DNA of 64,000 nt from Ketogulonicigenium robustum. Lineage in GTDB: Bacteria; Pseudomonadota; Alphaproteobacteria; Rhodobacterales; Rhodobacteraceae. How positions within the stretch are numbered: position 1 is the first letter of the stretch; each line of letters begins with the position of its first letter. Where the stretch lies: positions 62,001-126,000 of the forward strand of contig NZ_CP019938.1 of NCBI RefSeq assembly GCF_002117445.1. Direction: 5' to 3'. The notes beneath the pieces were generated by a model, which saw nothing but the letters and a program-made list of their open reading frames with translations, was not told the DNA's origin and ran no database searches. Below are positions 21,195 to 64,000 of the stretch, one piece after another. A program made the translations under genes and the position numbers.

Positions 21195-21203
21195 GGCTGG
21201 CTG

Positions 21204-21845
21204 TCAGGCCCCGAGCCGCGATGCAGCTTGGGCAAGGCGCGTAACCTCGGCCCAGTCGCCGGTTGCCAACGCGGATTTGGGGGCCACCCAGCTGCCGCCG
21301 ACGCAGGCGACGTTCGGCAGGGCCAGATAGTCGGTCGCATTCTGCGGGGTGACGCCACCCGTCGGGCAGAACGTGATTTGCGGCAGCGGAGAGGCCAGCG
21401 AGCCCAGCAGTTTCGCGCCGCCGGCAGCTTCGGCAGGGAAGAATTTTTGCATCACATAGCCTTGTTCCAACAGGAACATCGCCTCGGATGCGGTGGCCGC
21501 GCCGGGCAGCAGGGGCAGGCCGTATTCGATGCAGGCGTCGATCAGGCGCTGCGTCGCGCCGGGCGAGACACCAAAATGGGCCCCTGCGTCTTTCGCAGCC
21601 TTCACATCTGCGGGCGTCAGCAGGGTGCCTGCGCCGACCACGCCGCCATCCACTTCGGCCATCGCGCGGATCACATCCAGCGCGGCGGGGGTGCGCAGCG
21701 TTACCTCGAGTGCGGGTAGGCCGCCAGCGACCAGCGCCTGCGCCAGCGGGGCGGCTTGGGCCACGTCTTCGACGATCAGCACCGGCACAACGGGGGCGAG
21801 GCGGCAGATTTGCAGCGCGGCGGCAGATTGGACGGCAGGTGTCAT
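21204..21845 (-). CDS. eda: KDPG aldolase (2-dehydro-3-deoxyphosphogluconate aldolase)
   Basis: 213 residues, one TIM barrel. Active-site residues are visible: Glu47 and Arg51 in LEVTLRT, and the Schiff-base Lys134 in [21 protein letters not shown] and CPTGGV phosphate-binding loops are present. Splits KDPG into pyruvate and glyceraldehyde 3-phosphate, the last step of the Entner-Doudoroff route. Follows edd by 26 bases. It would also be needed by the kdgK cluster at 43 kb, which has no aldolase of its own. Confidence 0.96.
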
Positions 21846-21871
21846 CGGGCGTGTTCCCCTTGGCGTTATGA

Positions 21872-23683
21872 TCAGACCAGCGCCGAGGCGCCGGTTTCGG
21901 CGGTGCCGACGCTATTCCGGAAGGTCGCGAACAGCTCGCGCCCCATACCGGTGGCGTTGGCGGACAGGTCGGGCTGCGCGGGGCGGCGGCCTGTCAAATC
22001 GGACAGGCAGTCGATCGTGCCGCTGACGGCGTCTAGGCGGATCATATCACCATCTTCGATCAATGCTAGAGGGCCGCCCGCCGCAGCTTCGGGTGCGACG
22101 TGGATGGCGGCGGGCACTTTGCCCGATGCGCCCGACATGCGGCCATCGGTGACCAGCGCAACCTTTAGCCCGCGGTCTTGCAGAACCGACAGCACGGGCG
22201 TCAGCGTGTGCAGTTCGGGCATGCCATTGGCGCTGGGGCCCTGGAAGCGCAGCACGACTACGGTGTCGCTGGTGAATTCGCCGCGTTGGAAGGCGGCCTT
22301 CACATCGTGCTGGTCAATAAAAACGCGGGCAGGGGCCTGAATAATATGCCGTTCGGGCGCGACGGCCGAGACTTTGATCACCCCGCGCCCGAGGTTGCCG
22401 TGCAATTGGCGCAGCCCGCCGGTGGCGGCGAATGGCTCGGCGACGGGGCGCAGGATTTTATCGTTCAGCGTGGTGGTCGGGCCTTCTTGCCACGTGACCG
22501 CACCGTCGTGCAGCTTGGGCTCGGTGCGGTAGGCCGCTAGTCCCGTCCCCATAATCGTCTGGGCGTCGGCATGCAGCAGGCCCGCGTCCAGCAATTCGCC
22601 AATCAGGAATTGCAACCCGCCTGCGGCGTGGAAGTGGTTCACATCGGCCAGTCCGTTGGGGTAGACGCGCGCCATAAGCGGCACCACGCTGGCCAAATCA
22701 TCAAAGTCCTGCAAATCCAGCAGGATACCCGAAGCGCGCGCCATGGCCGGCAAGTGCAGGACAAGATTGGTCGAGCCGCCAGTCGCCATCAACCCGACGA
22801 TGCCGTTCACATAGGCCCGCTCGTCCAGAATCTCGCCTGCGGGGCAGAAATCATTGCCAAGGGCGGTGATTGCAGCGGCGCGGCGGACGGCGGCGTCTGT
22901 CAGGGCCTCGCGCAGGGGGCTGCCGGGGTGGATGAAGGTGGCGCCGGGCAGGTGCAGGCCCATCACCTCCATCAGCATTTGGTTACTGTTGGCGGTGCCG
23001 TAGAAGGTGCAGGTGCCCGGGCCGTGGTAGCTGGCCATTTCGGCGGCCATCAGTTCCTCGCGTGTGGCCTTGCCCTCGGCATAGGCGTTGCGGACGGCGG
23101 CCTTTTCGCTGTTGGTGATCCCCGACGCCATCGGGCCTGCTGGCACGAAAACCGCCGGAATATGGCCAAAGCTGGCGGCGGCCATAATTAGGCCGGGAAC
23201 GATCTTGTCGCAAACCCCCAAGTAAATCGAGGCGTCAAAGCAGTTATGGCTCAGGCCAACCGCCGCCGCCATGGCAATCACATCGCGCGAGAAAAGCGAC
23301 AGTTCCATCCCCGCTTGGCCCTGCGTGATGCCGTCGCACATGGCGGGCACGCCGCCTGCGACTTGGGCGGTCGCCCCGACGCTGCGGGCTACATCGCGGA
23401 TGCGTTGGGGGTAGGTTTCGAACGGCTGATGCGCCGACAGCATGTCGTTATAGGCGGTGATAATGCCAATATTCGGCGCACGCCCCGCGACCAGCGAGGC
23501 CTTATCCTGCCCCATCGCCGCATAGGCGTGGGCCTGATTGCCGCAGCCCAAATGGCTGCGCGAGGGCCCTGCTGCGACAGCGGCACGGATGCGATCCAGA
23601 TAGGCCCCACGCGTCTGTTCCGAACGGCGCCGGATGCGTTCGGTGACCTCGGCGACGACCGCGTTGATCGGGGAATGGGGCAT
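21872..23683 (-). CDS. edd: Phosphogluconate dehydratase
   Basis: 603 residues of the IlvD/Edd family. The iron-sulfur ligating cysteines fall in [30 protein letters not shown] and later blocks; the C-terminal half has [20 protein letters not shown] and [11 protein letters not shown]. Converts 6-phosphogluconate to KDPG. GAGG five bases before the ATG supports the start. First gene of edd-eda-gntK, with two LacI-type operators 25-60 bases upstream, so it is probably derepressed by gluconate or a pathway intermediate. Confidence 0.97.
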
Positions 23684-31924: not shown

Positions 31925-31945
31925 CCCGCAGCGTTGGAGGTTGAG

Positions 31946-33439
31946 ATGCAAGTTCTTATGGACGCCTTCGGCCATGTGTTTCAATGGCATGTCCTGCTGG
32001 TTATCGTGCTGGCGGCGGCCTTTGGTATGCTGGTGGGGGCCATTCCGGGGTTGACGGCCACAATGGCGACATCACTTCTGGTGCCGCTGACATTTTTCAT
32101 GGACCCCGTGCCGGCGGTGGCCACCATCGTGACCGCGACCGCAATGGCGATTTTCGCTGGCGACATCCCGGGCGCATTGCTGCGCATACCGGGGACGCCT
32201 TCCTCGGCGGCCTATGTCGACGACAGCTACATCCTGTCGCGACAGGGGCGCGCAAACGACGCGCTGGGGGCGAGTTTGTTCTTTTCGGTTCTGGGCGGGA
32301 CGATCGGTACGATCGTTCTGGTTGTTAGTGCGCCGCAACTAGCGGAAATCGCGTTGAATTTCACGTCGTTCGAATACTTCTGGCTGGTGATGCTCGGGCT
32401 GTTCTGCGCGACATTCGTGTCGCCCGGCACACCGACGCGGGGCCTGATCGCCCTGTTTCTGGGGCTTGGCTTTGCCATGGTCGGCCAGACGAACCCCACG
32501 GGCGAGCCGCGCTATACCTTCGGCTCGATCGAGTTGATGGCGGGGATCCAGTTCATTCCCGCGATGATCGGCCTGTTCGCGATGTCCGAAGTGATGCGCT
32601 TTTACGCCCATCCGTTCCAGAACCAAAAACCGGCGGGTGTGAAAGGGCCGATCTTGCGGCAGCAATTTGGCGTGCTGCGTCGCTACCCTGTGCAAGCGCT
32701 GCGGGGGTCTGCCGTTGGCACCGCCATCGGGATTCTGCCGGGCGCGGGGGCGGATATTGCCGCGTGGATTTCCTATGCGGTGTCCAAGCGTTTCTCGCGT
32801 AAGCCCAAGGAATTCGGCAAAGGCTCGATCGAAGGGTTGGTCGAGGCGGGGTCGGCCAACAATGCATCGGTGTCGGCGTCTTGGGTGCCTGCGCTGGTGT
32901 TTGGTATTCCCGGCGACAGCATCACGGCCATTGCGATTGGTGTCCTTTATATCAAAGGGATCAACCCCGGCCCGACGATTTTTCTGACGCAACCCGACAT
33001 CATCTATGCGGTGTTCATCGTCTTCTTTCTGGCGCTGCTGCTGATGTTGCCGCTGGGGTGGATCACCATTCGCGCAGCAGGACTGTTGCTGGCGATTCCG
33101 CCACGCGTTCTGATGCCGATCATCCTGATGTGCTGTGTCACAGGGGCCTATGCGATCAACAATTCGGCGGCGGGCATCCTGATTATGCTGTGCTTCGGCG
33201 TCTTGGGCTTCATCATGGCCGAAAACGACATACCCGTTGCGCCGGTGATCCTCGGCCTTGTCCTTGGTCCGATGCTCGAGGAAAACTTCGTCAACTCGAT
33301 GATCAAGGCAAATGGCAACTTCGGCGCATTCTTTGAACGCCCCATTTCGGCGGCGTTGGGTGTGTTTACCATCGCGGTGCTGCTGATGCCGATCATACGC
33401 CTGATAATGCGAAAGCAACGCATTAAAAGTGAAAGCTAA
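31946..33439 (+). CDS. Tripartite tricarboxylate transporter large membrane subunit (TctA family)
   Basis: 497 residues from ATG 31946, which has GGAGG five bases before it; a TTG four codons upstream would lose that site. About 11-12 membrane spans with the duplicated TctA motifs: GMLVGAIPGLTATMATSLLV, GDIPGALLRIPGTPSSAAYV, TAIGILPGAGADIAAWISYA and WVPALVFGIPGDSITAIAIG. Carries the substrate using the cation gradient. Four bases before the dehydrogenase gene, so the enzyme is part of the operon. Confidence 0.95.
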   Translation: MQVLMDAFGHVFQWHVLLVIVLAAAFGMLVGAIPGLTATMATSLLVPLTFFMDPVPAVATIVTATAMAIFAGDIPGALLRIPGTPSSAAYVDDSYILSRQGRANDALGASLFFSVLGGTIGTIVLVVSAPQLAEIALNFTSFEYFWLVMLGLFCATFVSPGTPTRGLIALFLGLGFAMVGQTNPTGEPRYTFGSIELMAGIQFIPAMIGLFAMSEVMRFYAHPFQNQKPAGVKGPILRQQFGVLRRYPVQALRGSAVGTAIGILPGAGADIAAWISYAVSKRFSRKPKEFGKGSIEGLVEAGSANNASVSASWVPALVFGIPGDSITAIAIGVLYIKGINPGPTIFLTQPDIIYAVFIVFFLALLLMLPLGWITIRAAGLLLAIPPRVLMPIILMCCVTGAYAINNSAAGILIMLCFGVLGFIMAENDIPVAPVILGLVLGPMLEENFVNSMIKANGNFGAFFERPISAALGVFTIAVLLMPIIRLIMRKQRIKSES

Positions 33440-33442
33440 GGT

Positions 33443-34390
33443 ATGACAAAAAAAGATATTCTACTTATGTCACCGCCTGCGAGTGAAAAGCTGGGCGACG
33501 ATTTGGCGGCCCGCTTTAACGTGATCCGCTGGTGGGAGGCCGAGGACAAACCTGCCTTGCTGGCCAAGCTGGCAGGCCATCTGCAGCTGATCGCCACCAC
33601 AGGCCATTCGGGGCCGGATGCCGACGTGATCGCCGCGCTGCCAAAGCTGCAGCTAATCGCATCGTTCGGCGTCGGCTATGACGGCATCGACATCGCGGCG
33701 GCGCGTCAGCATGGGGTGAAGGTGACGAACACGCCAGATGTTCTGAACGATTGCGTGGCCGAATTGGCACTAGGGCTGATGATTGCGCTGGCGCGCGACA
33801 TGGTGAATGCCGATCAGTACACCCGTGCGGGCCGATGGGCGCGTGACGGCAACTACCCGTTTCAGGATGAACTGACCGGCAAGGTTGTTGGCATTTTGGG
33901 GCTAGGGCGCATCGGCAAGGAAATTGCCCGCCGCGCGCAAGCGTTTCGTATGCAGGTGGTCTACCATGGCCGCAGTGCGCAAGTCGACGAGCCCTACCGC
34001 TACTACCCCGATCTGGTGCAGATGGCGCGCGATGTGGACTGGCTGGTCGTCATTGCCCCCAGCGCGGCGGGCACCCATCATCTTGTCGATGCTGCTGTTT
34101 TGGACGCATTAGGGCGTGATGGACGGTTGATCAACGTGGCGCGCGGCAGCTTGGTAGATGAGGCCGCGCTGGTCGCTGCGCTGCAAAACGGCACTATCAA
34201 AGGCGCGGGGCTGGATGTGTTCGAGGACGAGCCGCGTCCGAACCCCGCACTGCTAACGCTGTCCAACGTGATCCTGTCCCCGCACGCGGGCACTGCGACG
34301 CACCGCACGCGGCGCATCATGGGGGATCTGGTTATGGCCAATCTTGAAGCGCATTTGCGGGGCGACCCGTTACGATCGCCAGTCGTCTAG
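33443..34390 (+). CDS. D-isomer-specific 2-hydroxyacid dehydrogenase (hydroxypyruvate/2-ketogluconate reductase type)
   Basis: 315 residues. NAD(P)-binding GLGRIG, catalytic Arg in NVARGSLVDEAAL, Glu in DVFEDEPRPNP and His in LSPHAGTAT are all present. Reduces a 2-keto acid to the D-2-hydroxy acid or the reverse. The GRSAQ segment after beta-2 (VVYHGRSAQ) suggests NADPH preference. Co-transcribed with TctCBA, so it probably acts on the imported acid. One of three such enzymes in the window (see 42351 and 55484), which are clearly not recent duplicates. Confidence 0.92.
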   Translation: MTKKDILLMSPPASEKLGDDLAARFNVIRWWEAEDKPALLAKLAGHLQLIATTGHSGPDADVIAALPKLQLIASFGVGYDGIDIAAARQHGVKVTNTPDVLNDCVAELALGLMIALARDMVNADQYTRAGRWARDGNYPFQDELTGKVVGILGLGRIGKEIARRAQAFRMQVVYHGRSAQVDEPYRYYPDLVQMARDVDWLVVIAPSAAGTHHLVDAAVLDALGRDGRLINVARGSLVDEAALVAALQNGTIKGAGLDVFEDEPRPNPALLTLSNVILSPHAGTATHRTRRIMGDLVMANLEAHLRGDPLRSPVV

Positions 34391-34423: not shown

Positions 34424-35263
34424 TTATGCGTGGCCGACGGTCTGCTGCTGCACGCCCAGCCCTTCAATGCCAAGGCGGATAACCTCGGCGCCCTTGAGGT
34501 AAACCGGCGGCTTCAGCCCCATCCCGACCCCCGGAGGTGTTCCGGTCGAGATAATGTCGCCCGGTTGCAGCGACATGAACTGGCTGACGTAGCTGACCAG
34601 ATGGGCTACGCCAAAAATCATCGTGCGCGTTGAACCATTTTGGTAACGATGGCCGTCAACCTCCAGCCACATCGACAAATTCTGCGGATCGTCTATTTCG
34701 TCCTTGGTCACCAGCCAGGGGCCGGTCGGGCCGAATGTATCGGCGCTTTTGCCCTTGATCCACTGCCCGCCGCGCTCGATCTGGAAGGCGCGTTCGGACA
34801 CGTCGTTGATCACGCAATAGCCTGCGACGGCGTCCAGCGCCTCGGCCTGCGGGATGTAGCTGCCGCCTTTGCCGATGACGATGCCGAGCTCGACCTCCCA
34901 GTCGGTTTTGGTCGCGCCGCGGGGTATCAGAACGTCATCGTTCGGTCCGCAGATAGCCGAGGTTGCCTTGCCGAAAATGATCGGTTCGGACGGGATCGGC
35001 ATGTTGCTTTCGGCGGCGTGGTCAGCGTAGTTCAGGCCGATGCAGAGGAATTTGCCAACCTGACCGACGCAGGGCCCAATGCGGCCTGCGGGCAGGATGG
35101 GCAGGGCGGCGTGGTCCAGCGCGGCGATGGCGGCAAGGCCCGCAGGGGTCAGCGCGGCGCCCGCAATGTCGGCCACATGGGCCGACAGGTCGCGTAGCTG
35201 CCCTGCGCTATCCAGCAGGGCGGGAACTTCTTGGCCCGGGGGGCCGACACGCAGAAGTTTCAT
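34424..35263 (-). CDS. Fumarylacetoacetate hydrolase-family enzyme, probable 2,4-diketo-3-deoxy-L-rhamnonate hydrolase
   Basis: 279 residues. FAH-fold motifs: KFLCIGLNYADHAAESN, PIIFGKATSAICGP and metal ligands Glu123 and Glu125 in DWEVELGIVIG with Asp154 in CVINDVSER; GDIISTGTPPGVGMG near the C-terminus. In the non-phosphorylative L-rhamnose/L-fucose routes this family cleaves the 2,4-diketo-3-deoxy acid to pyruvate and L-lactate. Placement 15 bases after the SDR and in the same operon as rhmD supports that role. Substrate assignment is inferred from context; ureidoglycolate lyase annotations in this family are commonly misleading. Confidence 0.88.
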   Translation of the reverse strand: MKLLRVGPPGQEVPALLDSAGQLRDLSAHVADIAGAALTPAGLAAIAALDHAALPILPAGRIGPCVGQVGKFLCIGLNYADHAAESNMPIPSEPIIFGKATSAICGPNDDVLIPRGATKTDWEVELGIVIGKGGSYIPQAEALDAVAGYCVINDVSERAFQIERGGQWIKGKSADTFGPTGPWLVTKDEIDDPQNLSMWLEVDGHRYQNGSTRTMIFGVAHLVSYVSQFMSLQPGDIISTGTPPGVGMGLKPPVYLKGAEVIRLGIEGLGVQQQTVGHA

Positions 35264-35278
35264 GGGTCTTTTCCTTTT

Positions 35279-36025
35279 TCAGTAAGTCGCGCGGCCGCCC
35301 GACAGGTCGAAGACCGCGCCGGTGGTGAATGAGTTTTCGGCGCTGGCCAGCCATGCGACCATATTGGCGGCTTCTTCTACCTCGAGGAAGCGCCCGCGCG
35401 GGATTTTCGACAGCATATAGTCGATGTGGGTTTGGCTCATTTGTTCGAAAATACGGGTGCGCGCCGCTGCGGGGGTGATGCAGTTCACGGCGATGTCCAG
35501 CGCTGCGGTTTCTTTGCCCAGCGTCTTGGTCAGCGCGATGACACCGGCCTTTGACGCCGAATAGGCGCAGGCATTGGGGTTCCCTTCTTTCCCCGCGATC
35601 GAGGCGACGTTGATAACGCGGCCATAGCCCTGCGCGATCATGTCGGGCAGCAGGGTGCGGCAGACATGGAAGACACCAATCAGGTTTACGTCGATCACCT
35701 TGCGAAACTCGGCCGGGTCATAATCGACGGTCGGGCCGTTACTGCCAGCGATACCCGCGTTGGCGACCAGAATGTCGACATGCCCCAGCGCATCGCGCGT
35801 CGCCTGTGCGGCGGCTTCGACGCTGCCGAGGTCGGCTTGGTCGACGCGTACGAAATGGGCCTGTTCGCCAAGGCTGGCAACCGCATCGGCCCCGCGCGCG
35901 GCGTCCAAATCCCATATCGCAACGCGCGCGCCGCTGGCGATGAACCGCTGCGCGACAGCAAAGCCGATTCCTTGCGCGCCGCCGGTGACGACTGCGGTTT
36001 TTCCGTTCAAATCAATCGTGTTCAT
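35279..36025 (-). CDS. SDR oxidoreductase, probable 2-keto-3-deoxy-L-rhamnonate dehydrogenase
   Basis: 248 residues of the classical short-chain dehydrogenase type: TGGAQGIG at 14-21, NAG at 89-91, and the catalytic Ser142, Tyr155 and Lys159 (YSASK). Asp39 at the end of beta-2 (AIWDLD) indicates NAD. Between a rhamnonate dehydratase and an FAH-family hydrolase it is best explained as the enzyme that oxidises 2-keto-3-deoxy-L-rhamnonate to the 2,4-diketo acid. Ten bases after rhmD. Confidence 0.88.
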   Translation of the reverse strand: MNTIDLNGKTAVVTGGAQGIGFAVAQRFIASGARVAIWDLDAARGADAVASLGEQAHFVRVDQADLGSVEAAAQATRDALGHVDILVANAGIAGSNGPTVDYDPAEFRKVIDVNLIGVFHVCRTLLPDMIAQGYGRVINVASIAGKEGNPNACAYSASKAGVIALTKTLGKETAALDIAVNCITPAAARTRIFEQMSQTHIDYMLSKIPRGRFLEVEEAANMVAWLASAENSFTTGAVFDLSGGRATY

Positions 36026-36034
36026 GGGGTGTCC

Positions 36035-37219
36035 TTAGCGTTCATAGGGGCGGTGAAGCTGCAAATCGGGCGACAACCGCACGCCGAAGCCGGGCTTGTC
36101 TAAGGCCGAAATATGCAGCAGGCCGTTTTGGGGCACGGGTTCATCCAGCAGCATGGGGCTGAACATCGGCACGACGTTGTCGGCCTTCGGCGCCATCATC
36201 AAAAACTCGGCAAAGGGGCTGTTTTGACGTGTCATAACAAAGTGATAGCTGTAAACGCTGGACCCGTGCGGGATGACCATCGTGTTATGCGCATCGGCCA
36301 GGGCCGAAATTTTCAACAGCTCGGTCAGCCCGCCGCACCAGCCGACATCGGGCTGGATGAAATCGCAACAACCCATTTCGAGCAGCATGCGGAACCCCCA
36401 GCGGGTGGCTTCGTGTTCGCCTGTCGTCAGCAGCATTTTCGGGGGTAGCTTTTTGCGCAGCGCGGCATAGCCCCAGTAGTCGTCGGGCGGCAGACATTCC
36501 TCGATCCATTTCAGATCGTATTCAGCGGCGGCGACGGCAACTTGGTGGGCGTAATCGACGGTCATGCTCATCCAGCAGTCGAACATCAGCCAGAAATCGG
36601 GGCCGACTGCGTCGCGCATTTGGCCCAGGCGCTCCATCTCGGTGCGGATGCCGGGGGTGCCTTGCAGGGGGTTGTGGCGGAAGGCCAGCTTGCCGCCGAT
36701 GAACCCCATTTGCTTTGCCAAGTCGGGGCGGGCGCCCGTGGCATAGAAGGGTTGCTCGTCGCGCACCGCGCCACCGATCAGCGCGTGCACCGGCAACTGG
36801 CGCACCTGTCCCAGCAGATCCCACAGCGCCAGATCAACCCCCGAGATCGCGTTGATGACCAAGCCGCGCCGCCCATAATACAGCGTGGCGTTGAACATCT
36901 GGTCCCAGATCAGTTCGATCTCGTCGACACGGCGGCCTTCGACAAAGCGGGCGAGGTGCTTTTCGACAATATAGGCAGCGGGTTCGCCCCCTGTTGTGAC
37001 GGCGAATCCCTTGACGCCGGTGTCGGTCTCCAGCTCGACCACGAGGGTGCCCAGCACGTTGATCCCAAAGCTTTGCCGACTTTGCCGATAGGCGGGATAG
37101 CGCGACATGGGGGTGGCGATGTGGTCGTCAATCCAGTGGTCGGCGCCTTGGTCGTGATAATCGGCCCCGCCGCCAAAGACGGTGAAGGCCCTGATATGCT
37201 TGATAATAGGGGCGTGCAT
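36035..37219 (-). CDS. rhmD: L-rhamnonate dehydratase
   Basis: 394 residues from the ATG at 37219, preceded by GGGAGGAG. Enolase superfamily. Strong match to E. coli RhmD as I recall it: [68 protein letters not shown] and LDKPGFGV. Metal ligands Asp214 (FDCWMS), Glu240 (WIEECLPP) and Glu268 (GEH); His33 and His318 (IPHGSS) complete the site. Dehydrates L-rhamnonate to 2-keto-3-deoxy-L-rhamnonate. First gene of a three-gene minus-strand operon and divergent from a LysR gene. No L-rhamnose dehydrogenase or lactonase is nearby, so rhamnonate may be taken up directly or made elsewhere. Confidence 0.94.
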
Positions 37220-37324
37220 TCTCACTCCTCCCATGGAAATGCAGGGACAGTGGTAATGGCGATTGTGATGCGGGAATAATGAAGTAATCTGCGGTTGCGA
37301 TCACGAATTGCGAAAGGTCTGCCG

Positions 37325-38312: not shown

Positions 38313-39326
38313 GTGACAGCTAAACGACCGACATTGGAAGATATCGCCAAGGTGGCAGGTGTCTCGCGCGCGACGGTGTCGCTGGTCGTGCGCAATTCGC
38401 CATTGGTGGCCGATCAAACCCGTCAGCGTGTTGCGCAGGTCATGGCCGATCTGGACTATGTGCGCAACATCGGCGCGGCAAAGCTGCGCAGCAACAATAG
38501 CCACACCATCGGGGTGGTAGTGCCGAACTTGGTAAACTCTTTCTTTACCGAGTTTTTGGGCGGCGTCGAACACGTCATGGGCCAGCATGACCGCGTGGTT
38601 TTGCTGGCTAACAGCAAAGACGATCCGCACATTCAGGACGAAATTTTGCAGCGCTTTCGTGGCCACGGCGTCGATGGCGTGATTCTGTGCCCGGCCGAAG
38701 GCACCCAGACCGATCTGCCCCAGCGGATGCGTAGTTGGGGCTTGCCGCTTGTGCAGGCGCTACGTCATGTAGGCGGCGACCAGACCGATTATGCTGGGGC
38801 CGATTATGTCAACGGCGTCGGTCTGGCGTTGCGCTATCTGGTCGAACTCGGGCACAAGCGCATCGCGTTTTTGTCCGTTCCAGCCCACACCTCGGCCCGC
38901 GATGACCGCCTGCGCGGGTTTCATCTGGCACTGCAAGAAACCGGCGCTGAAAACGCCGGAATCCTCGAGGCGGACCTGAAGTGGGGCGGGGCAGGCGGCG
39001 CGGTTGACGCCCTGATGGCGCTGCCGACCAAACCCACCGCAGTCCTTTGTTTCAACGACGTTTTGGCCGCTGGGTTGATGCTGGATTTGCGCAGGGCGGG
39101 TTACAAGCCGGGGCGCGATATTTCGGTGATCGGGCTCGACGATCTGCCCATGGCCGAGCTGGCCTTTCCGCCGCTGACAACTGTGGCGATGCACCCGAAC
39201 CTGATCGGGGCCGGTGCCGCCCGCCTGCTGGCCCGCCGCTTGGCCGAGCCAGACGCAGTCCCCGACCATTACACCCAGGCCCCCAATTTCGTCGCGCGCG
39301 AATCCGTGGCGGATCTGCGCGCGTAG
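38313..39326 (+). CDS. LacI-family transcriptional regulator
   Basis: 337 residues from a GTG preceded by GAGGGA. N-terminal HTH PTLEDIAKVAGVSRATVSLV and hinge LRSNNSHTIGVVVPNL, then a ribose-binding-protein-like effector domain with DGVILCPAEGTQ, YLVELGHKRIAFLS and ISVIGLDDLPMAELAFPPLT. It lies directly before the ABC-importer/kdgK operon and an operator-like element precedes it. Because that element also matches the edd operators, it may coordinate the sugar-acid operon with the Entner-Doudoroff genes. The inducer is unknown. Confidence 0.93.
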   Translation: MTAKRPTLEDIAKVAGVSRATVSLVVRNSPLVADQTRQRVAQVMADLDYVRNIGAAKLRSNNSHTIGVVVPNLVNSFFTEFLGGVEHVMGQHDRVVLLANSKDDPHIQDEILQRFRGHGVDGVILCPAEGTQTDLPQRMRSWGLPLVQALRHVGGDQTDYAGADYVNGVGLALRYLVELGHKRIAFLSVPAHTSARDDRLRGFHLALQETGAENAGILEADLKWGGAGGAVDALMALPTKPTAVLCFNDVLAAGLMLDLRRAGYKPGRDISVIGLDDLPMAELAFPPLTTVAMHPNLIGAGAARLLARRLAEPDAVPDHYTQAPNFVARESVADLRA

Positions 39327-39343: not shown

Positions 39344-39372
39344 TTGACAGCGGGGGTGCCCTCAATTTAGAT
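39344..39372 (+). promoter_or_regulatory. Candidate promoter of the sugar-acid ABC/kdgK operon
   Basis: A perfect TTGACA (39344-39349) is followed after 17 bp by TTAGAT (39367-39372), a weak -10. It lies 40-70 bases before the first permease start, whose own Shine-Dalgarno is GGGGAGGG. Confidence 0.45.
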
Positions 39373-39412
39373 CGTTCTATATAGGAAGAGACACATCCGC
39401 AGGGGAGGGCAG

Positions 39413-40081
39413 ATGTATCAATTCAATTTCCGGCCCGTGTTCGATAATATGGATATGCTGCTGCAAGGCGCATGGCTGACGGTGCAATTGTCGCTGACGG
39501 CGATGGTGCTGGGGCTGATCGTATCCATCGTGGGGGCCGTTGCGAAAACCTCGCGTTTTGTTCCGCTGCGTTGGATCGTCGATGTCTACGTCGAGGTGAT
39601 CCGCAACACGCCGTTCCTGATCCAGATCTTCTTCATTTTCTTTGGTTTGCCCGCCATCGGCTTCAGCATGTCACCCAATACGGCGGCCTTGGTGGCGTTG
39701 GTGATCAACGTGGGCGCCTATGGCACCGAGATCATCCGCGCGGGGATTGAATCTGTGCCGCGCGGCCAGATCGAGGCAGGCCGCGCGCTGGCGCTGAACC
39801 CGCTGCAAATTCTGCGCTACGTGATTTTGAAGCCCGCTTTGCGCAATATCTATCCCTCGCTGACCAGCCAGTTCATTTACCTGATGCTGACATCCAGCGT
39901 GGTCTCGGTCATCTCGGCGACCGATCTTGCGGCAGCAGGGGCCGACCTGAGTGCTACGACTTTCGCCAGCTTCGAGGTCTATCTGGTGCTGACGATCATG
40001 TATTTCTTGTTGGCGCTGGCGTTTTCGGGGCTGTTCGGCGCGCTGCGCCGTGTGTTCTTCCACTATCCTGCGAGCCGCTGA
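39413..40081 (+). CDS. Polar amino acid-type ABC transporter permease (HisM/GlnP family)
   Basis: 222 residues. Five or six membrane spans, the family block VEVIRNTPFLIQIFFIFFGL and the EAA loop GIESVPRGQIEAGRALALNP. First gene of a seven-gene plus-strand operon; the next permease begins one base after its stop. Although the fold is that of amino acid importers, the operon's enzymes act on keto/hydroxy acids, so the true substrate may be a sugar acid or hydroxy acid. Confidence 0.93.
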   Translation: MYQFNFRPVFDNMDMLLQGAWLTVQLSLTAMVLGLIVSIVGAVAKTSRFVPLRWIVDVYVEVIRNTPFLIQIFFIFFGLPAIGFSMSPNTAALVALVINVGAYGTEIIRAGIESVPRGQIEAGRALALNPLQILRYVILKPALRNIYPSLTSQFIYLMLTSSVVSVISATDLAAAGADLSATTFASFEVYLVLTIMYFLLALAFSGLFGALRRVFFHYPASR

Positions 40082-40082
40082 C

Positions 40083-40739
40083 ATGATCCGTGAATTTTCA
40101 TCTAGCGATGTACTGTTCATTGTCGGCGCGATCCGTTGGACGCTGATCCTGTCGGCAATCGCCTTTGTGGGCGGCGCGATCGGGGGGATGCTGATTGCGC
40201 TGGCACGCACGGCGCAAAACACGCTTCTACAACGCGTGGCGCAGGCTTTTATCGCGGTGTTTCAAGGCACGCCGTTGCTGATGCAGCTATTTCTGGTCTA
40301 CTTTGGCCTGACTGTCGCGGGCCTGCCGATTGACCCGCTGATGGCCGCCGCCGTTGCGCTGACGCTGCATGCCAGCGCCTATCTAGGCGAGATTTGGCGC
40401 GGAGCGATCCAGTCGGTGCCGACCGGCCAATCCGAGGCCGCAAGCGCCCTTTCGCTGTCTTACACCCACCGCATGCGCTATGTCGTGCTGCCGCAGGCGT
40501 TGCGTGTCGCAACTGCGCCGACGGTCGGGTTTTTGGTGCAGTTAATCAAGGGCACGTCGCTGGCGTCGATCATCGGATTTACCGAACTGACGCGCGCCGG
40601 TCAGATCGTCAACAACGCCACGTTCCAGCCGTTTTTGGTGTTTGGCACGGTGGCTGCGCTATACTTCGTGTTGTGCTGGCCGCTGTCGCTGATCGCGCGC
40701 CATATGGAATCGCGGATGCGCCGCGCGATAACACGCTGA
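40083..40739 (+). CDS. Polar amino acid-type ABC transporter permease, second subunit
   Basis: 218 residues from ATG 40083, one base after the previous stop; an in-frame ATG at 40050 lies inside the previous gene. Same family as its neighbour: FIAVFQGTPLLMQLFLVYFG and EAA loop GAIQSVPTGQSEAASALSLS. Forms a heterodimer channel with the first permease. Confidence 0.93.
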   Translation: MIREFSSSDVLFIVGAIRWTLILSAIAFVGGAIGGMLIALARTAQNTLLQRVAQAFIAVFQGTPLLMQLFLVYFGLTVAGLPIDPLMAAAVALTLHASAYLGEIWRGAIQSVPTGQSEAASALSLSYTHRMRYVVLPQALRVATAPTVGFLVQLIKGTSLASIIGFTELTRAGQIVNNATFQPFLVFGTVAALYFVLCWPLSLIARHMESRMRRAITR

Positions 40740-40769
40740 TTTCGTCACCTGTTTCTGAGGAGGAGAAAC

Positions 40770-41567
40770 ATGAAAACGACCCGTCGCCTATTCACTGCCC
40801 TTGCCGCCAGCACCCTGCTGGCCGGTTTCGCCGCACCCAGCCTTGCGGCTGATCTGCAAGCCATCAAAGATGCCGGCCGCGTCCGGATCGGGATGATGGT
40901 CGACTTTCCGCCCTTTGGCATTTTGGATGCTTCCGGCCAGCCCGGCGGGTATGATGCCGATGTGGCCAAAGCGCTGGCCAGCTATCTGGGTGTCGACGTG
41001 CAGATCGTGCCCGTAACCGGCCCGAACCGCATCCCTTACTTGCTGTCGGGTCAGGTTGACCTGCTGGTTGCATCGCTGGGCATCACCGCCGAGCGCGCGG
41101 AACGTGTCGATTTCTCGACCCCCTATGCAGGGATCGCAATCGGCGTTTACGGCGGCACCGATGTGCAGATCGCCGACGCGGCTGATCTGGCCGGCAAAAC
41201 CGTCGCGGTCGCTCGCGCATCGACCCAAGACATCGGCGTGACCGAAGTTGCCCCCGCAGGCACCGAAATCCGCCGTTTTGACGATGACGCCAGCGCCGTG
41301 CAGGCTCTGATGTCGCGCCAAGTGCAAGCGATTGGCCTGTCGAACGTGGTCTTCACGCAGATTTCGGGCGTGGCCGGTGGCCGGTTCGAGAAGAAGTTCG
41401 ACCTGTCCAGCCAAGTGCAGGGCATCGCAGTCGCGCCTGGATCAGATGCTCTGCTGGCCGAAATCAACGCGTTTGTGGTGGCGTCGCGCACCGACGGCAC
41501 GTTCGACGGGCTATACCAGACGTGGCTGGGCGAAGATCTGCCCGATTTCGTTAAAAACGCTGAATAA
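40770..41567 (+). CDS. Periplasmic substrate-binding protein (SBP_bac_3 family)
   Basis: 265 residues with signal peptide (MKTTRRLFTALAASTLLAGF, cleavage after AAPSLAA). Family motifs: RVRIGMMVDFPPFGILDASG, GYDADVAKALASYLGVDVQI, VDLLVASLGITAERAERVDF and the Arg in ITAERAERVDFS that pairs with an alpha-carboxylate in amino acid-binding members. GAGGAGGAG precedes the start. A stable hairpin after the gene probably favours higher expression of this subunit. Confidence 0.93.
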   Translation: MKTTRRLFTALAASTLLAGFAAPSLAADLQAIKDAGRVRIGMMVDFPPFGILDASGQPGGYDADVAKALASYLGVDVQIVPVTGPNRIPYLLSGQVDLLVASLGITAERAERVDFSTPYAGIAIGVYGGTDVQIADAADLAGKTVAVARASTQDIGVTEVAPAGTEIRRFDDDASAVQALMSRQVQAIGLSNVVFTQISGVAGGRFEKKFDLSSQVQGIAVAPGSDALLAEINAFVVASRTDGTFDGLYQTWLGEDLPDFVKNAE

Positions 41568-41580
41568 GCTGTAGACGGGT

Positions 41581-41605
41581 GGCGGCCGCTCCCTTTGCGG
41601 CCGCC
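41581..41605 (+). promoter_or_regulatory. Intercistronic hairpin after the binding-protein gene
   Basis: Perfect 9-bp GC stem GGCGGCCGC (41581-41589) with GCGGCCGCC (41597-41605), loop TCCCTTT, in the 58-bp gap between binding protein and ATPase. With no T-run it is more likely an mRNA-stabilising element than a full terminator. Confidence 0.6.
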
Positions 41606-41625
41606 CTGCTTCTAGGGGATTTTGC

Positions 41626-42350
<725 letters not shown>

Positions 42351-42354
<4 letters not shown>

Positions 42355-43271
42355 CACGCAAGCAGATTCTGGCCCTTGCCGCGATGAAGCCTGCCGATAT
42401 GGCGGCGCAGCTTGCGGCTGATTACGACGTAACCGCCGACATCGCCGCCGCAGCGTCCGCCGAGATCGTGCTGACCAACGGCGCTGTCGGCATATCAAAG
42501 GCCCAGATGGATCAACTGCCCGCGCTGCAGTTGATCGCCGTCAATGGTGTGGGCGTAGATGCCGTAGATCTGGCCGAGGCCAAGCGCCGCGGCATCGCCG
42601 TCACGACGACGCCTGATGTGCTTTCGCTGGCTGTTGCCGAACTTGCCTTGGGGCTGGCATTGGCGACAGGGCGGCGGATCGCCGAAGGTGATCGTTTTGT
42701 CCGTGCCGGATCGTGGGCCGATGGCGGCAAATTGGCCCTTGGCCAATCTGTGCTGGAGGGGCGGGCAGGCATTCTGGGCTATGGCCGCATCGGGCGGCGT
42801 TTGGCCGACCTGCTGCGCGGCATGGGCATGCAGGTTTTCTACACTGCGCGCGCCGAAAAAGCGGGCACCCCCGATACGTTCGAGGCCGATCCGGTGGCCT
42901 TGGCCGAAAGCTGTGACGTGCTGTTTGTCACCGCCACAGGCGGCCCCGATACGCGCGGGTTGGTTGATGCCGATGTGTTGCAGGCCCTTGGCCCGCGGGG
43001 AATTTTGGTCAACGTCGCGCGCGGGCCGGTGGTCGACACCCCCGCATTGGCGGCTGCGCTGGCCGCGGGTACTATCGCGGGCGCGGGGCTGGATGTGTTC
43101 GATGATGAACCGCAGGTGCCCGATGCGCTGCTGAACGCGCCCAACACGGTGCTGACGCCGCATATCGCATCAGCCACCGAAAACGCGCGCCGTGCCATGG
43201 CGACTTTGGTGCTAAAAAACATCACCGCCTATACGGCGGGTCAGCCGCTGCCCAGCAAGTACGAGGGTTAG
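42351..43271 (+). CDS. D-isomer-specific 2-hydroxyacid dehydrogenase (2-keto sugar acid reductase candidate)
   Basis: 306 residues. NAD(P)-binding GYGRIGRR, an Arg-containing YTARAEKAG segment that suggests NADPH, catalytic Arg in [13 protein letters not shown], acidic residue in [11 protein letters not shown] and His in LTPHIASAT. Belongs to the glyoxylate/hydroxypyruvate/2-ketogluconate reductase branch. With KDG kinase and a hydratase directly downstream it likely handles a 2-keto sugar acid. Two bases before kdgK. Confidence 0.92.
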
Positions 43272-43272
43272 G

Positions 43273-44202
43273 ATGGATTTTCTGTGCATTGGCGAGCCGC
43301 TGGTTGAATTTACCAACCCGGCGGATGATCCCGCGCGCTTCAACCGCTTGGCGGGTGGCGACACGCTGAACACCGCGATCTACTTGGCGCGCTTGTCGCC
43401 AGCTGGTGCGGTGGGCTATCTGTCGCGCCTCGGCGATGACAAGATGAGCGATTACCTGGCCAGCATCATGGTCGATGAAGGTTTGGTTGATTTGTGCCAG
43501 CGCGAAGTAGGCGGTCGCCCGGGCCTTAGCTTTATCACCACGGACAGCACGGGCGAGCGTAGCTTTACCTACTGGCGCGATCAGGCGCCCGCGCGGCGGC
43601 TATTCAGCGACCAGTCGGAAATTATTGCATTGGAACAAGCTGATACGTTGTTTCTGTCCGGCATTACATTAGCTGTTTTGCATCCACAGGGTCGTGCGTC
43701 GCTACTGGCTGCACTCGCCGCGCGTCGTGCGGCAGGCGCGCAAATCGTGCTCGACACCAATTACCGCCCGCGTCTTTGGCCCAATGCGGCAACGGCCGCA
43801 GAGGTCATCGGGAAGGCTGCCGGCGTCGCGACGCTGGTTCTTCCCTCGCTGGACGACATGAGCGGTGCTTTCGGTACTGATGACCCGCAAGAGGCATTGG
43901 CTTTGCTGATGCATTTGACCAAAGCCGAAATCGTGCTGACGACAGGCGGCGGTGACGTGCTTTATCGCGCGGCTGGGCAGGATACGGCCCGCGCTATAGC
44001 CATCGCCGAACCGCGCGCCGCGTGTGATACCACCGGTGCAGGCGACAGTTTCAATGCCGCGTGGCTGACTGGTCGCAAGGCGGGCCTCAGCATCGACGAT
44101 GCCATCGCGCGTGCTGCCGCTTTGGCTGCCGAGGTTGTCTGCTACCCCGGTGCGATCATGCCGCGCGCCGCTATGCCTTTTGCCGCCTCAGGTACACAAT
44201 GA
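43273..44202 (+). CDS. kdgK: 2-keto-3-deoxygluconate kinase (PfkB family)
   Basis: 309 residues. Matches KdgK: CIGEPLVEF at the start, LAGGDTLNTAIYLARLSPAG, TGERSFTYWRDQAPARRLF, LFLSGITLAVL, DTNYRPRLWP and the PfkB signature with catalytic Asp in DTTGAGDSFNAAW. Phosphorylates 2-keto-3-deoxy-D-gluconate to KDPG, the substrate of the eda aldolase at 21 kb. The stop overlaps the hydratase start (ATGA). Confidence 0.92.
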   Translation: MDFLCIGEPLVEFTNPADDPARFNRLAGGDTLNTAIYLARLSPAGAVGYLSRLGDDKMSDYLASIMVDEGLVDLCQREVGGRPGLSFITTDSTGERSFTYWRDQAPARRLFSDQSEIIALEQADTLFLSGITLAVLHPQGRASLLAALAARRAAGAQIVLDTNYRPRLWPNAATAAEVIGKAAGVATLVLPSLDDMSGAFGTDDPQEALALLMHLTKAEIVLTTGGGDVLYRAAGQDTARAIAIAEPRAACDTTGAGDSFNAAWLTGRKAGLSIDDAIARAAALAAEVVCYPGAIMPRAAMPFAASGTQ

Positions 44203-44945
44203 CCGCCACATTCGACCCCCAAATCGCCGCCGCCCAGCTTGTCGCCACGCGTAACGGCCAGCCGCGCGCCACAGGTTTGCAACCGCCGCCGACGGATGTC
44301 GTTGCCGCCTATGCCGTGCAAGGCCATGTGATGCGCACGCTGGGCGGGCCCGCCTGCTGGAAAATGGCGATGATGGGCGGCGTCGACCGGCAAGCCGGCG
44401 CGATGCCGGTGACGATCCTGTACCCCAATGGCGGGCATGTCGCCGGCCTGCCGCACGACGCGGCGATCGAGGTGGAAACGGCCTTCGTCCTTGCGCAAGA
44501 CCTGCCCGCCGATTGCACCCTTGATGAGGTTGTCGCGGCGGTCGGTGCTGTGCATCTGGCTTTCGAAATCGTTGCCTCACGCTTCGCCGATCGAAGTGCA
44601 ATCACCCCTTTGACCGCATTGGCCGACAGCTTTAGCTCGGCGGCGATTGTGCTGGGCGATGCGATTGCAGATTGGGAGTCCGCCTTGCAGCGCCCGCTCG
44701 GCCTCAGTCTGACGCGTGGCGCAGATGCCCCCGACACTGTCGAGATTGTGCCGACGTTGGCGGAACAAATCGATTTTATCCACTGGCTCGCGGGTCACGC
44801 CGTAGCTCACGGGCTGCCGCTGGTGGCGGGCACTGTCATCATCAGCGGCGCGCGGATCGGGCCTATCGCGATGGCAGGCATTGAAACCGCATCGGCGCTA
44901 GGGGGCGGGGCGAGTGTTTCGGCTAAATTCTCATATTCCGCATAA
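44199..44945 (+). CDS. 2-keto-4-pentenoate hydratase-family protein
   Basis: 248 residues from the ATG overlapping the kdgK stop; upstream in-frame sequence lies within kdgK. MhpD/HpaH/FAH-related fold with metal-ligand glutamates in AAIEVETAFVLAQDL and VHLAFEIVASRF, and a C-terminal GTVIISGARIGPIAMAG in place of the usual GxxxTGT turn. Known members hydrate 2-keto-4-pentenoates or decarboxylate 4-oxalocrotonate. Here it may act on a dehydrated keto sugar acid; no aromatic genes are near. Last gene of the operon. Confidence 0.82.
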   Translation: MTATFDPQIAAAQLVATRNGQPRATGLQPPPTDVVAAYAVQGHVMRTLGGPACWKMAMMGGVDRQAGAMPVTILYPNGGHVAGLPHDAAIEVETAFVLAQDLPADCTLDEVVAAVGAVHLAFEIVASRFADRSAITPLTALADSFSSAAIVLGDAIADWESALQRPLGLSLTRGADAPDTVEIVPTLAEQIDFIHWLAGHAVAHGLPLVAGTVIISGARIGPIAMAGIETASALGGGASVSAKFSYSA

Positions 44946-62179: not shown

Positions 62180-63013
62180 TTATTCCTGGCCCGGCAGATT
62201 TTTGCGGTCGCGCAGCAGGGCCACATCGTCGCCCGTCACGCTAAGGTCGGGGTTGCCGAAGCGCGCGAACACGTAATTCGCGACGGCGGCAATCTGTTCG
62301 TCGTTCATGTCAGCCGCATAGGCCGGCATGGCAACGGGGAAGCCGCGGTTGCTGTCGCGCGTCACACCATGCAAGATGACTTGCACAAGGTTGTTCGGCG
62401 TGTGGCCACCAATACGGCCGTTGCCAACCAGCGACGGGTAGAAGTGGTCAGCCGTGCCTTCGCCGTTGGGCATGTGACAGGTTGCGCAGGCCGCGACATA
62501 AAGCTCGGCCCCGTCGGTGGTCGACAGGTCGACCTTGGCTTCGGGGTTTGACTGGTCGATCGCCGGATCCAGCGAGATGACCGAAGCCGGTTGCGCGGTC
62601 GTAAAGCTGAACGCAGGCTGCTTTACATCCGGATCGGACACAGGGTCAGTCGACTTCAGATAGGTCGCCAGCGCGGTCAATTCGTCATCGGTCATGCGAC
62701 GCGTGACGCTGCCCACAACACCAGCCATCGACCCAGCTGCTTGCCCTTTGGCGGTGCTGCCATCGCGCAGGTATTCGACCAGCTCTTCAATGGTCCAACC
62801 GCCGATACCGGCAATCGGGTCCGAGGAGATGTTCGGCACGTACCAGCCGCCAAAGAATTGGCCGCCCAGTGTTTCGGTGTGGCAGCCCGTGCAGTTGTGG
62901 GTTTCAACCAAGGCGCGGCCGGCATCCAAAACCGACGCGTCGGTCGTTTGGGCCATGACAGGCGCAGCCAAAACGGTCCCAGCGGCAAAAGCGATCAGAA
63001 CACGATTTTTCAT
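62180..63013 (-). CDS. Di-heme cytochrome c, electron acceptor subunit of the membrane dehydrogenase
   Basis: 277 residues from ATG 63013 (GGAG upstream). Signal peptide to about residue 21 (APVMAQ). Two CxxCH heme sites: CTGCH at 41-45 and CATCH at 176-180, with candidate axial Met in GFPVAMPAYAADM. FAD-dependent gluconate/sorbitol-type dehydrogenases usually have a tri-heme cytochrome of ~440 residues, so this is a shorter two-heme version. Two bases after the flavoprotein gene. It would carry electrons from the flavin to ubiquinone or the oxidase in the periplasm. Confidence 0.9.
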   Translation of the reverse strand: MKNRVLIAFAAGTVLAAPVMAQTTDASVLDAGRALVETHNCTGCHTETLGGQFFGGWYVPNISSDPIAGIGGWTIEELVEYLRDGSTAKGQAAGSMAGVVGSVTRRMTDDELTALATYLKSTDPVSDPDVKQPAFSFTTAQPASVISLDPAIDQSNPEAKVDLSTTDGAELYVAACATCHMPNGEGTADHFYPSLVGNGRIGGHTPNNLVQVILHGVTRDSNRGFPVAMPAYAADMNDEQIAAVANYVFARFGNPDLSVTGDDVALLRDRKNLPGQE

Positions 63014-63015
63014 GA

Positions 63016-64000
63016 TCAAATCTCCTTCGCGATGATTTGGGCCGAACGGATCGCCAGCGCGACAGCCGTCAGCGTCGGGTTGATCAGACCCGATGCAGGG
63101 ATCACGCCTGTGGTCGCAAGGAACAGGTTTTCGTGGTCCCAAGTGCGGCATTCGTGGTTCACAACCGAATTATCCGCACTGTCGCCCATGATGACGGTGC
63201 CCATGATGTGGTCGCGGTTCTGGAAGCCGGTGTCATCGTCATAGACGGTGCCGCCCATAACCTCGACGAACTTGGCATAGTCGGCTTTCACGACCGGAAC
63301 AGCGGCCTTCACATAATCATCCACGTCGTAGTGGATCGTGAGGGTCGGAATCCCCAGCGCATCGACGCGCGTCGGGTGCGGCTGCAACCGGTTTTCGGGG
63401 TGCGGCAGCATTTCGAACACGGTCGACACATCGACAAATCGGGCCGACAGGTGGCGGATCTGCTCGTCCAGTTCAGATCCGACGACGCCCTGCTTCAGCA
63501 GGTATTCGGTCACGACCTTGTTGGGCACGTTGTTCGACAGCGAGTGTTTGATCGCGGCGTGATCCTTTCGGAAGTCGCCATCGCGCCAGTTAAAGATACC
63601 GCCTTGCTGTACGGGGCCACGACCCGGCCACAGGGCTTCGTCTGCAAAGAATTGCAGGCCCATACCGGTGTGGTCCATCAGGTTCCGGCCGACTTGGTCC
63701 GACGAATTGGCGACATCCGACATCATCAGCAGCTTGGGCGTCTCGTAGCCGTTCGCTGCGACGATGAAGTATTTGGCCGTCAGACGGTGGCTTTCACCAT
63801 CGGGCGACTTGTAGTGGACGGCCACAATCTTGTCGCCCTCGCCCGTTTCCAACTTGTAGGCGACGGCCTCGGTCAGGATTTGTGCGCCTTCATCCTCGGC
63901 TTTCTCGGCTGTCATATTGCCCGAATACATTGCGCCAATCGGGCACACAGGCATGCAGTTGTTGTTACCGGTACAGGCCGGACGGCCCTGCAAGCTGATC
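63016..64000 (-). CDS. GMC-family FAD dehydrogenase, flavoprotein subunit (N-terminus beyond window edge)
   Basis: The visible part is the C-terminal ~327 residues. It begins with GRPACTGNNNCMPVCPIGAM, a Cys-rich block typical of membrane gluconate-2/sorbitol dehydrogenase flavoproteins (reported to hold a 3Fe-4S cluster in related sugar dehydrogenases). Then come ADEALWPGRGPVQQGGIFNW and the GMC C-terminal domain with the catalytic His/His-Asn pair in NSVVNHECRTWDHENLFLAT and TGVIPASGLINPTLTAVALA. Oxidises a sugar alcohol or sugar acid in the periplasm and passes electrons to the cytochrome encoded next. A small third subunit may lie upstream, outside the window. Substrate (gluconate, sorbitol or similar) is not determined. 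Confidence 0.9.
   Translation of the reverse strand, partial: ISLQGRPACTGNNNCMPVCPIGAMYSGNMTAEKAEDEGAQILTEAVAYKLETGEGDKIVAVHYKSPDGESHRLTAKYFIVAANGYETPKLLMMSDVANSSDQVGRNLMDHTGMGLQFFADEALWPGRGPVQQGGIFNWRDGDFRKDHAAIKHSLSNNVPNKVVTEYLLKQGVVGSELDEQIRHLSARFVDVSTVFEMLPHPENRLQPHPTRVDALGIPTLTIHYDVDDYVKAAVPVVKADYAKFVEVMGGTVYDDDTGFQNRDHIMGTVIMGDSADNSVVNHECRTWDHENLFLATTGVIPASGLINPTLTAVALAIRSAQIIAKEI

Follow-up and report, generated by a model that had tools for sequence, protein, structure and literature searches.

The described systems closest to the locus analyzed here are the kgu operon of Pseudomonas, importers of the polar amino acid transport (PAAT) type such as GlnHPQ and HisJQMP, and the 2-hydroxydienoate hydratases MhpD and HpcG. 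In GlnBP, Arg75 holds the alpha-carboxylate of the ligand and Asp157 its amino group. The product of MhpD and HpcG is a 4-hydroxy-2-oxo acid. For Gluconobacter, one study presents two NADPH-preferring 2-ketogluconate reductases (GLF_0478 and GLF_1777) as the committed step of 2-ketogluconate use (PMC11837542). Plasmid 2 of Ketogulonicigenium vulgare was reported to carry ABC genes as well as Edd, Eda and GA2DH, which converts 2-keto-L-gulonic acid (2-KGA) to idonate; its absence in strain SPU B805 was tied by the authors to higher 2-KGA (PMC6293013).

Here we describe an operon in a 64,000-nucleotide stretch of DNA from Ketogulonicigenium robustum (contig NZ_CP019938.1, positions 62,001 to 126,000; the window), in which a PAAT-type ABC importer is joined to a 2-hydroxyacid dehydrogenase, a kinase of the 2-keto-3-deoxygluconate (KDG) type and a hydratase-like protein. 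With a probability of roughly 0.57, sequence comparison suggests a LacI-regulated operon scavenging a 2-keto sugar acid, which would be imported, reduced and passed into the Entner-Doudoroff pathway, with the kinase as a side branch. A previous sequence-only reading had offered import of sugar acids as one of two options. This option is now favored because the aspartate clamping the amino group is lost (25 of 25 operon binding proteins and eight of eight relatives), because related importers adjoin kguK/kguD-like and quinate/shikimate-type genes, and because the importer is paired with a 2-hydroxyacid dehydrogenase in two rhizobial and ten Azospirillum loci. A literature search, which covered few subscription papers, found no description of the operon, of the gene combination or of a hydratase together with 2-ketogluconate.

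Layout and conservation of the operon

All genes named in the sequence-only reading are intact, tightly packed open frames in the window translations, and family searches confirmed the proposed operon of importer, 2-hydroxyacid dehydrogenase, KDG-type kinase and hydratase-like protein. The operon is larger than had been assumed, as a LacI gene and a promoter/operator region belong to the set:

38313-39326, + strand: LacI-family transcriptional regulator (LacI family model, PF00356), first gene of the conserved set
39344-39349, + strand: promoter-like TTGACA upstream of permease A, within the promoter/operator region 39344-39381
39366-39381, + strand: palindromic operator TTTAGATCGTTCTATA, overlapping the presumed -10
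39413-40081, + strand: PAAT-type ABC permease A (EhuC/cystine/GlnP models, BPD_transp_1)
40083-40739, + strand: PAAT-type ABC permease B (family models, HisM/GlnP-type)
40770-41567, + strand: family-3 solute-binding protein (SBP_bac_3) with R109 kept, Ser191 in place of the amino-clamp Asp and Gly104 in place of GlnBP Thr70
41626-42354, + strand: GlnQ-type ABC ATPase (GlnQ-like model, 314 bits against a cut-off of 379)
42351-43271, + strand: D-2-hydroxyacid dehydrogenase (2-Hacid_dh), predicted NADPH-linked 2-ketoaldonate reductase
43273-44202, + strand: PfkB-family kinase, KDG-kinase type (KDG kinase as the top NCBIfam model)
44199-44945, + strand: MhpD-like putative 2-oxo acid hydratase of the fumarylacetoacetate hydrolase (FAH) fold (weak model matches, predicted fold), last gene of the operon

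The ATPase and dehydrogenase genes share a 4-base ATGA overlap, kinase and hydratase genes overlap by 4 bases, and a single base lies between dehydrogenase and kinase. The contig comprises 226,430 bases of a 2.71-Mb genome and is probably the counterpart of plasmid 2 of K. vulgare WSH-001, which carries that strain's copy of the operon; in a second genome of the genus the hydratase match lies at C2:108742-109467, and the WSH-001 plasmid 2 gene is at 108721-109467.

The same eight genes were found in the same order in 13 other named records, which argues against a chance assembly. These are Paracoccus versutus (two records), P. liaowanqingii (with a shortened kinase), P. sp. AK26, P. denitrificans, P. 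kondratievae, P. benzoatiresistens, P. acridae, P. aerius, P. sp. PAMC 22219, P. amoyensis, Puniceibacterium antarcticum and K. vulgare. Identity to the window proteins in these named records ranges as follows: permeases 80-86%, ATPase 83-91%, binding protein 70-84%, dehydrogenase 70-77%, kinase 58-74% and hydratase 44-53%. The LacI gene occupies the same position in all six annotated plasmid records with the full set. Upstream genes differ among these six; downstream, one neighborhood is common to P. versutus, P. denitrificans and P. kondratievae, and the other three differ. In P. liaowanqingii (L032:11462-12004) the kinase is annotated as a 180-residue frame and appears as two tblastn pieces: a shortened gene, perhaps in decay.

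A scan of 80 hydratase loci is biased to loci carrying this gene, and a binding-protein search served as a check from the other side. Among the 80, operon partners or a cut at the contig end were seen in 25 (eight full sets, nine of the Azospirillum type, five with a major facilitator superfamily (MFS) transporter, and L046, L047 and L052). Operon sets were not seen within the flank examined in the other 55, one of which (L092) has a binding-protein relative about 5.6 kb away. A hydratase match of some kind was obtained in 133 of 295 genomes of the family; only four besides the genome's own reach E <=1e-19, and the 3.6-kb stretches around these four contain no kinase or dehydrogenase relative. 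From the binding-protein side, 11 of 292 genomes of the order match at E <=1e-50, the own genome included, and loci were taken from nine of the ten others (G509 was left out). Six of the seven closest loci hold the complete set, and the seventh (P. nototheniae) is without dehydrogenase and kinase; two of the seven (L046 and L048) coincide with records named above. The two loci at about 40% binding-protein identity contain the importer only.

The set is modular. Ten Azospirillum loci, nine of them among the 80, combine importer, dehydrogenase, LacI and hydratase without a kinase, one of them without a detected ATPase; the unannotated A. brasilense record L165 was left out. One locus each in Sinorhizobium and Neorhizobium consists of LacI, importer, dehydrogenase and a small ABM-like protein, with no adjoining kinase or hydratase. 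In Gluconacetobacter (five of the 80 loci) a Gfo/Idh protein, an MFS transporter, hydratase and dehydrogenase occur with no adjoining kinase, and Komagataeibacter shows the same arrangement with a truncated dehydrogenase. P. seriniphilus has LacI, dehydrogenase and kinase but no hydratase, and in Deinococcus LacI and a dehydrogenase relative adjoin an annotated L-idonate 5-dehydrogenase. Regulator, importer and dehydrogenase are the most stable core, to which kinase and hydratase look like add-ons. The small rhizobial gene was considered as a mutarotase-like stand-in for the hydratase and rejected, as it is an ABM gene (above cut-off in one of the two loci).

A TTGAC box followed by the palindrome TTTAGA(T/A)CG(T/A)TCTA lies 5' of the first permease gene and is kept in all seven aligned loci. 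Among the nine loci reached through the binding protein, the palindrome is present in the seven close ones and in neither of the two distant ones. It is the sole site at <=1 mismatch in both whole plasmids scanned. In the whole genome the exact site occurs once, and a wider LacI regulon was rejected on these grounds; the one site with a single mismatch is on contig C3, close to a gene judged by eye to be ParA-like. With two mismatches allowed, the reversed pattern used as a control matched more often than the real one (23 and 20 versus 4 and 4), and weak sites were therefore regarded as background. The case for the operator is its conservation. LacI would repress at the palindrome over the -10 region, and the keto acid would release it.

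Importer and binding protein

Two HisM/GlnP-type permeases, a family-3 binding protein and a GlnQ-type ATPase make up the architecture of a PAAT importer; yet the arginine and aspartate positions predict that it is not an importer of amino acids. Among 25 aligned operon binding proteins, which include several from the same species, the carboxylate-binding arginine (R109) is kept, the aspartate column is occupied by serine (S191) and the Thr70 column by glycine in all 25. The aspartate is present in six of six E. coli PAAT receptors (GlnH, HisJ, ArgT, TcyJ, ArtJ and ArtI) and in two readily alignable paralogues of the same genome. The nine other SBP_bac_3 matches in this genome represent seven distinct sequences (two of the loci are copies, and one frame accounts for two matches); the remaining five also show the aspartate in the frame taken as the gene, on weak alignments. 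Eight further relatives with 40-60% identity were compared, the binding proteins of L183-L186 being left out; all eight keep the arginine and none has the aspartate (S, S, S, G, G, N, Y and P). AlphaFold gave a binding-protein model of moderate quality (pLDDT 84, pTM 0.76), and the 50 matches listed in a fold search with it are receptors for amino acids or opines, or relatives of such receptors.

A related importer was found in Cupriavidus necator A5-1 (L146), with 40% identity for the binding protein, 46 and 57% for the permeases and 50% for the ATPase. The gene order is LacI, binding protein, permeases, ATPase, KguK-like kinase and KguD-like dehydrogenase, and the binding protein is without the amino-clamp aspartate. 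The kinase shares 53% identity with the kinase of a Pseudomonas piscis locus (LacI, kinase, MFS transporter, 2-hydroxyacid dehydrogenase), and the dehydrogenase groups with the Pseudomonas 2-hydroxyacid dehydrogenase (support 80/79). The P. piscis locus was read as kgu by gene order, and the kgu names in L146 come from gene order and similarity to that locus. The KguK/KguD-like cluster of L146 is served by a PAAT-type ABC importer, not an MFS transporter. According to PMC2842291, other Cupriavidus strains use 2-ketogluconate, while JMP134, which is without the kinase, does not.

On a Rhizobium phaseoli plasmid (L173:4538-11168), a PAAT importer annotated as an amino-acid transporter carries asparagine at the amino-clamp position. 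It is followed by a Gfo/Idh protein, a type II dehydroquinate dehydratase and an isomerase/HPPD-type protein, and is likely a quinate/shikimate importer. The ligand class is better supported than the exact ligand, because other relatives have no informative enzyme neighbors.

Enzymes, proposed pathway and alternatives

In the dehydrogenase, the sequence is conserved around the catalytic Arg, Glu and His, and an arginine after the second strand suggests use of NADPH. In a tree of 21 chosen rows, which gave long-branch warnings, it groups with the enzymes of Azospirillum, rhizobia, Gluconacetobacter and Deinococcus, and the GhrB/KguD type is separated from these (split 99/99). Both belong to the same superfamily, so that a KguD-like function is conceivable.

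The best NCBIfam model of the kinase is KDG kinase (219 bits, cut-off 400). The protein is 40% identical to E. coli KdgK over 294 residues, 44% to a KdgK-type and 31% to a KguK-type kinase of P. piscis, whereas the two KguK-type kinases of P. piscis and L146 are 53% alike; the shortened kinase of P. liaowanqingii was left out of this comparison. It contains the motifs GGDTLN, YWR and NYRPRLW, which we take to be marks of a KDG-type kinase. An assignment of kinase and dehydrogenase as KguK and KguD was rejected after both had been compared with their counterparts in Pseudomonas and Cupriavidus.

The hydratase matches 2-keto-4-pentenoate hydratase models weakly (55 bits, below the curated cut-off of 350), and the family search gave no PF01557 match. 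Its structure model has a pLDDT of 95. Ranks 1-20 of the fold matches in the PDB are all taken by MhpD (TM 0.77), HpcG (best 0.79) and the related 4-oxalocrotonate decarboxylases, which fit almost as well, with other FAH enzymes lower. All 32 aligned relatives share Q41, K55, E91, E93, E123, D143 and G217, and the protein combines the MhpD/HpcG fold with the metal-binding EXE...E pattern and the lysine. Residues and model together point to an intact, metal-dependent 2-oxo acid (de)hydratase.

Under the proposed scavenging pathway, the binding protein would grip the carboxylate via R109 and no longer select for an alpha-amino group, and the PAAT permeases and ATPase would import the keto sugar acid. 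The dehydrogenase would reduce the free 2-keto-aldonate to the aldonate with NADPH. The substrate is most likely 2-keto-D-gluconate, and in Ketogulonicigenium perhaps also 2-keto-L-gulonate. Genes for gluconokinase, Eda and Edd lie in the same window (20691-23683), each over its curated cut-off, and provide a conventional way onward from gluconate, which would enter this route encoded about 15 kb away. The KDG-type kinase may add a branch towards 2-keto-3-deoxy-6-phosphogluconate (KDPG), phosphorylating a 2-keto-3-deoxy acid or 2-ketogluconate itself, and the hydratase-like enzyme may serve the same keto acid or a by-product.

Several observations weigh against this reading. The hydratase fits no definite step of the pathway, and importers of the clade probably carry several hydroxy acids, for example quinate. 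Three relatives at about 40% identity (L171, L194 and L195) have no recognized sugar-acid enzyme beside the importer. A single linear pathway predicts neither the P. homiensis locus, with LacI, kinase and hydratase and no importer, nor that of P. nototheniae, where importer and hydratase adjoin neither dehydrogenase nor kinase. The kinase is of the KDG and not the KguK type, and the dehydrogenase stands outside the GhrB/KguD group; 2-ketogluconate is therefore named from context. As to regulation, a scan for consensus sigma-70 promoters reported none here under its rule; when the search is limited to the window and three mismatches are allowed, nine of 100 shuffles match the operator as often.

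The sequence-only reading had raised the possibility of an undescribed route to KDG/KDPG. Spelled out, the hydratase would hydrate a 2-oxo-enoic acid to a 2-keto-3-deoxy-4-hydroxy acid (or the reverse), the dehydrogenase would set the redox state and the kinase would phosphorylate KDG. The hydratase is real and conserved. Its invariant residues and MhpD/HpcG-like fold, the KDG-type kinase with its motifs and the importer-free LacI-kinase-hydratase locus of P. homiensis all fit such a route. A linear three-enzyme route to KDG does not follow from this, because the two rhizobial loci are without the hydratase and the P. nototheniae hydratase is without dehydrogenase and kinase. In addition, the hydratase occurs with no adjoining kinase in Azospirillum and Gluconacetobacter and the kinase without the hydratase in P. 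seriniphilus, and we are aware of no natural source of 2-oxo-enoic sugar acids. We regard this route as doubtful. Less probable still is the order of reactions known for Pseudomonas KguK and KguD, with phosphorylation of 2-ketogluconate by the kinase and subsequent reduction of 2-keto-6-phosphogluconate to 6-phosphogluconate by the dehydrogenase. It would agree with the shared part types of the kgu operon (LacI regulator, transporter, kinase and reductase; PMC11678583) and with the related importer in the kgu-like cluster of C. necator; however, the kinase is not KguK-like, and rhizobial and Azospirillum loci pair the dehydrogenase with the importer and no adjoining kinase, so that the dehydrogenase should act on the free acid.

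Import and degradation of an amino sugar acid such as glucosaminate, the second option of the sequence-only reading, is now disfavored. The PAAT type of the importer would suit it, and genes of the pyridoxal phosphate (PLP) type, recognized by eye, adjoin a P. piscis KdgK relative (there also with RidA) and a Cupriavidus PfkB kinase, as glucosaminate would predict. With the aspartate lost in all operon binding proteins and no ammonia-lyase, deaminase or PLP-type dehydratase in the operon, we consider it highly improbable. An ordinary amino-acid importer sharing the operon by chance with unrelated enzymes would explain the family annotation and the amino-acid and opine receptors among the fold matches. 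The loss of the amino clamp and the persistent pairing of importer and dehydrogenase with a LacI gene from rhizobia to Azospirillum to Paracoccus make this scarcely more credible. Under a broader proposal, the branch of importers without the amino clamp would carry sugar and cyclitol acids (2-keto-aldonates, quinate and similar compounds), and in this operon the MhpD-fold enzyme would make a 2-keto-3-deoxy acid for the KDG-type kinase as a new step. Taken as a whole, this proposal is speculative and rather unlikely.

Neighboring genes and comparison with known systems

Other genes of the window may also concern sugar acids. On the - strand, a three-gene set at 34424-37234 encodes an L-rhamnonate dehydratase (719.9 bits, over the cut-off), an SDR protein and an FAH protein resembling 2,4-didehydro-3-deoxy-L-rhamnonate hydrolase (407.8 bits against a cut-off of 500), which looks like a non-phosphorylative sugar-acid pathway. 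On the + strand, 31934-34390 holds a TctA transporter protein (PF01970) and, immediately after it, a second D-2-hydroxyacid dehydrogenase, 45% identical to that of the operon; they would form a second pair for keto-acid uptake and reduction. At the end of the window (62180-63993, - strand), genes for cytochrome c and a GMC oxidoreductase form a combination as in a periplasmic dehydrogenase of sugars or sugar acids.

Automatic annotation of bacterial genomes very often assigns the label 'amino acid ABC transporter', and with the simple residue rule (arginine kept, aspartate lost) a whole branch could be renamed as importers of sugar acids. For Ketogulonicigenium, the operon is a possible means of re-consuming 2-keto sugar acids, which bears on the yield of the vitamin C precursor. 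The hydratase offers a testable candidate for a new step in keto-sugar-acid metabolism.

The operon resembles the Pseudomonas kgu operon (PtxS, KguE, KguK, KguT and KguD) in having a regulator of the LacI type together with a single transporter, kinase and reductase. It differs by an ABC importer in place of KguT, a KDG-type kinase in place of KguK, a hydratase instead of KguE and a dehydrogenase outside the KguD/GhrB group. With the C. necator A5-1 cluster it shares a PAAT-type importer, a binding protein without the amino-clamp aspartate, a LacI regulator, a PfkB kinase and a 2-hydroxyacid dehydrogenase; the enzymes there are of the KguK and KguD type, whereas neither a KDG-type kinase nor a hydratase was seen in the L146 stretch. 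The two Gluconobacter reductases are likened to the window dehydrogenase by proposed function only, not by sequence. Compared with MhpD and HpcG, the hydratase shares the model fold and the metal and catalytic residues, but is only about 25% identical, scores below the curated cut-offs and lies in a sugar-acid rather than an aromatic-degradation operon. The importer has the fold, gene set, ATPase family and carboxylate-binding arginine of GlnHPQ/HisJQMP-type systems, and differs from them by serine in place of the amino-group aspartate and glycine in place of the Thr70 equivalent.

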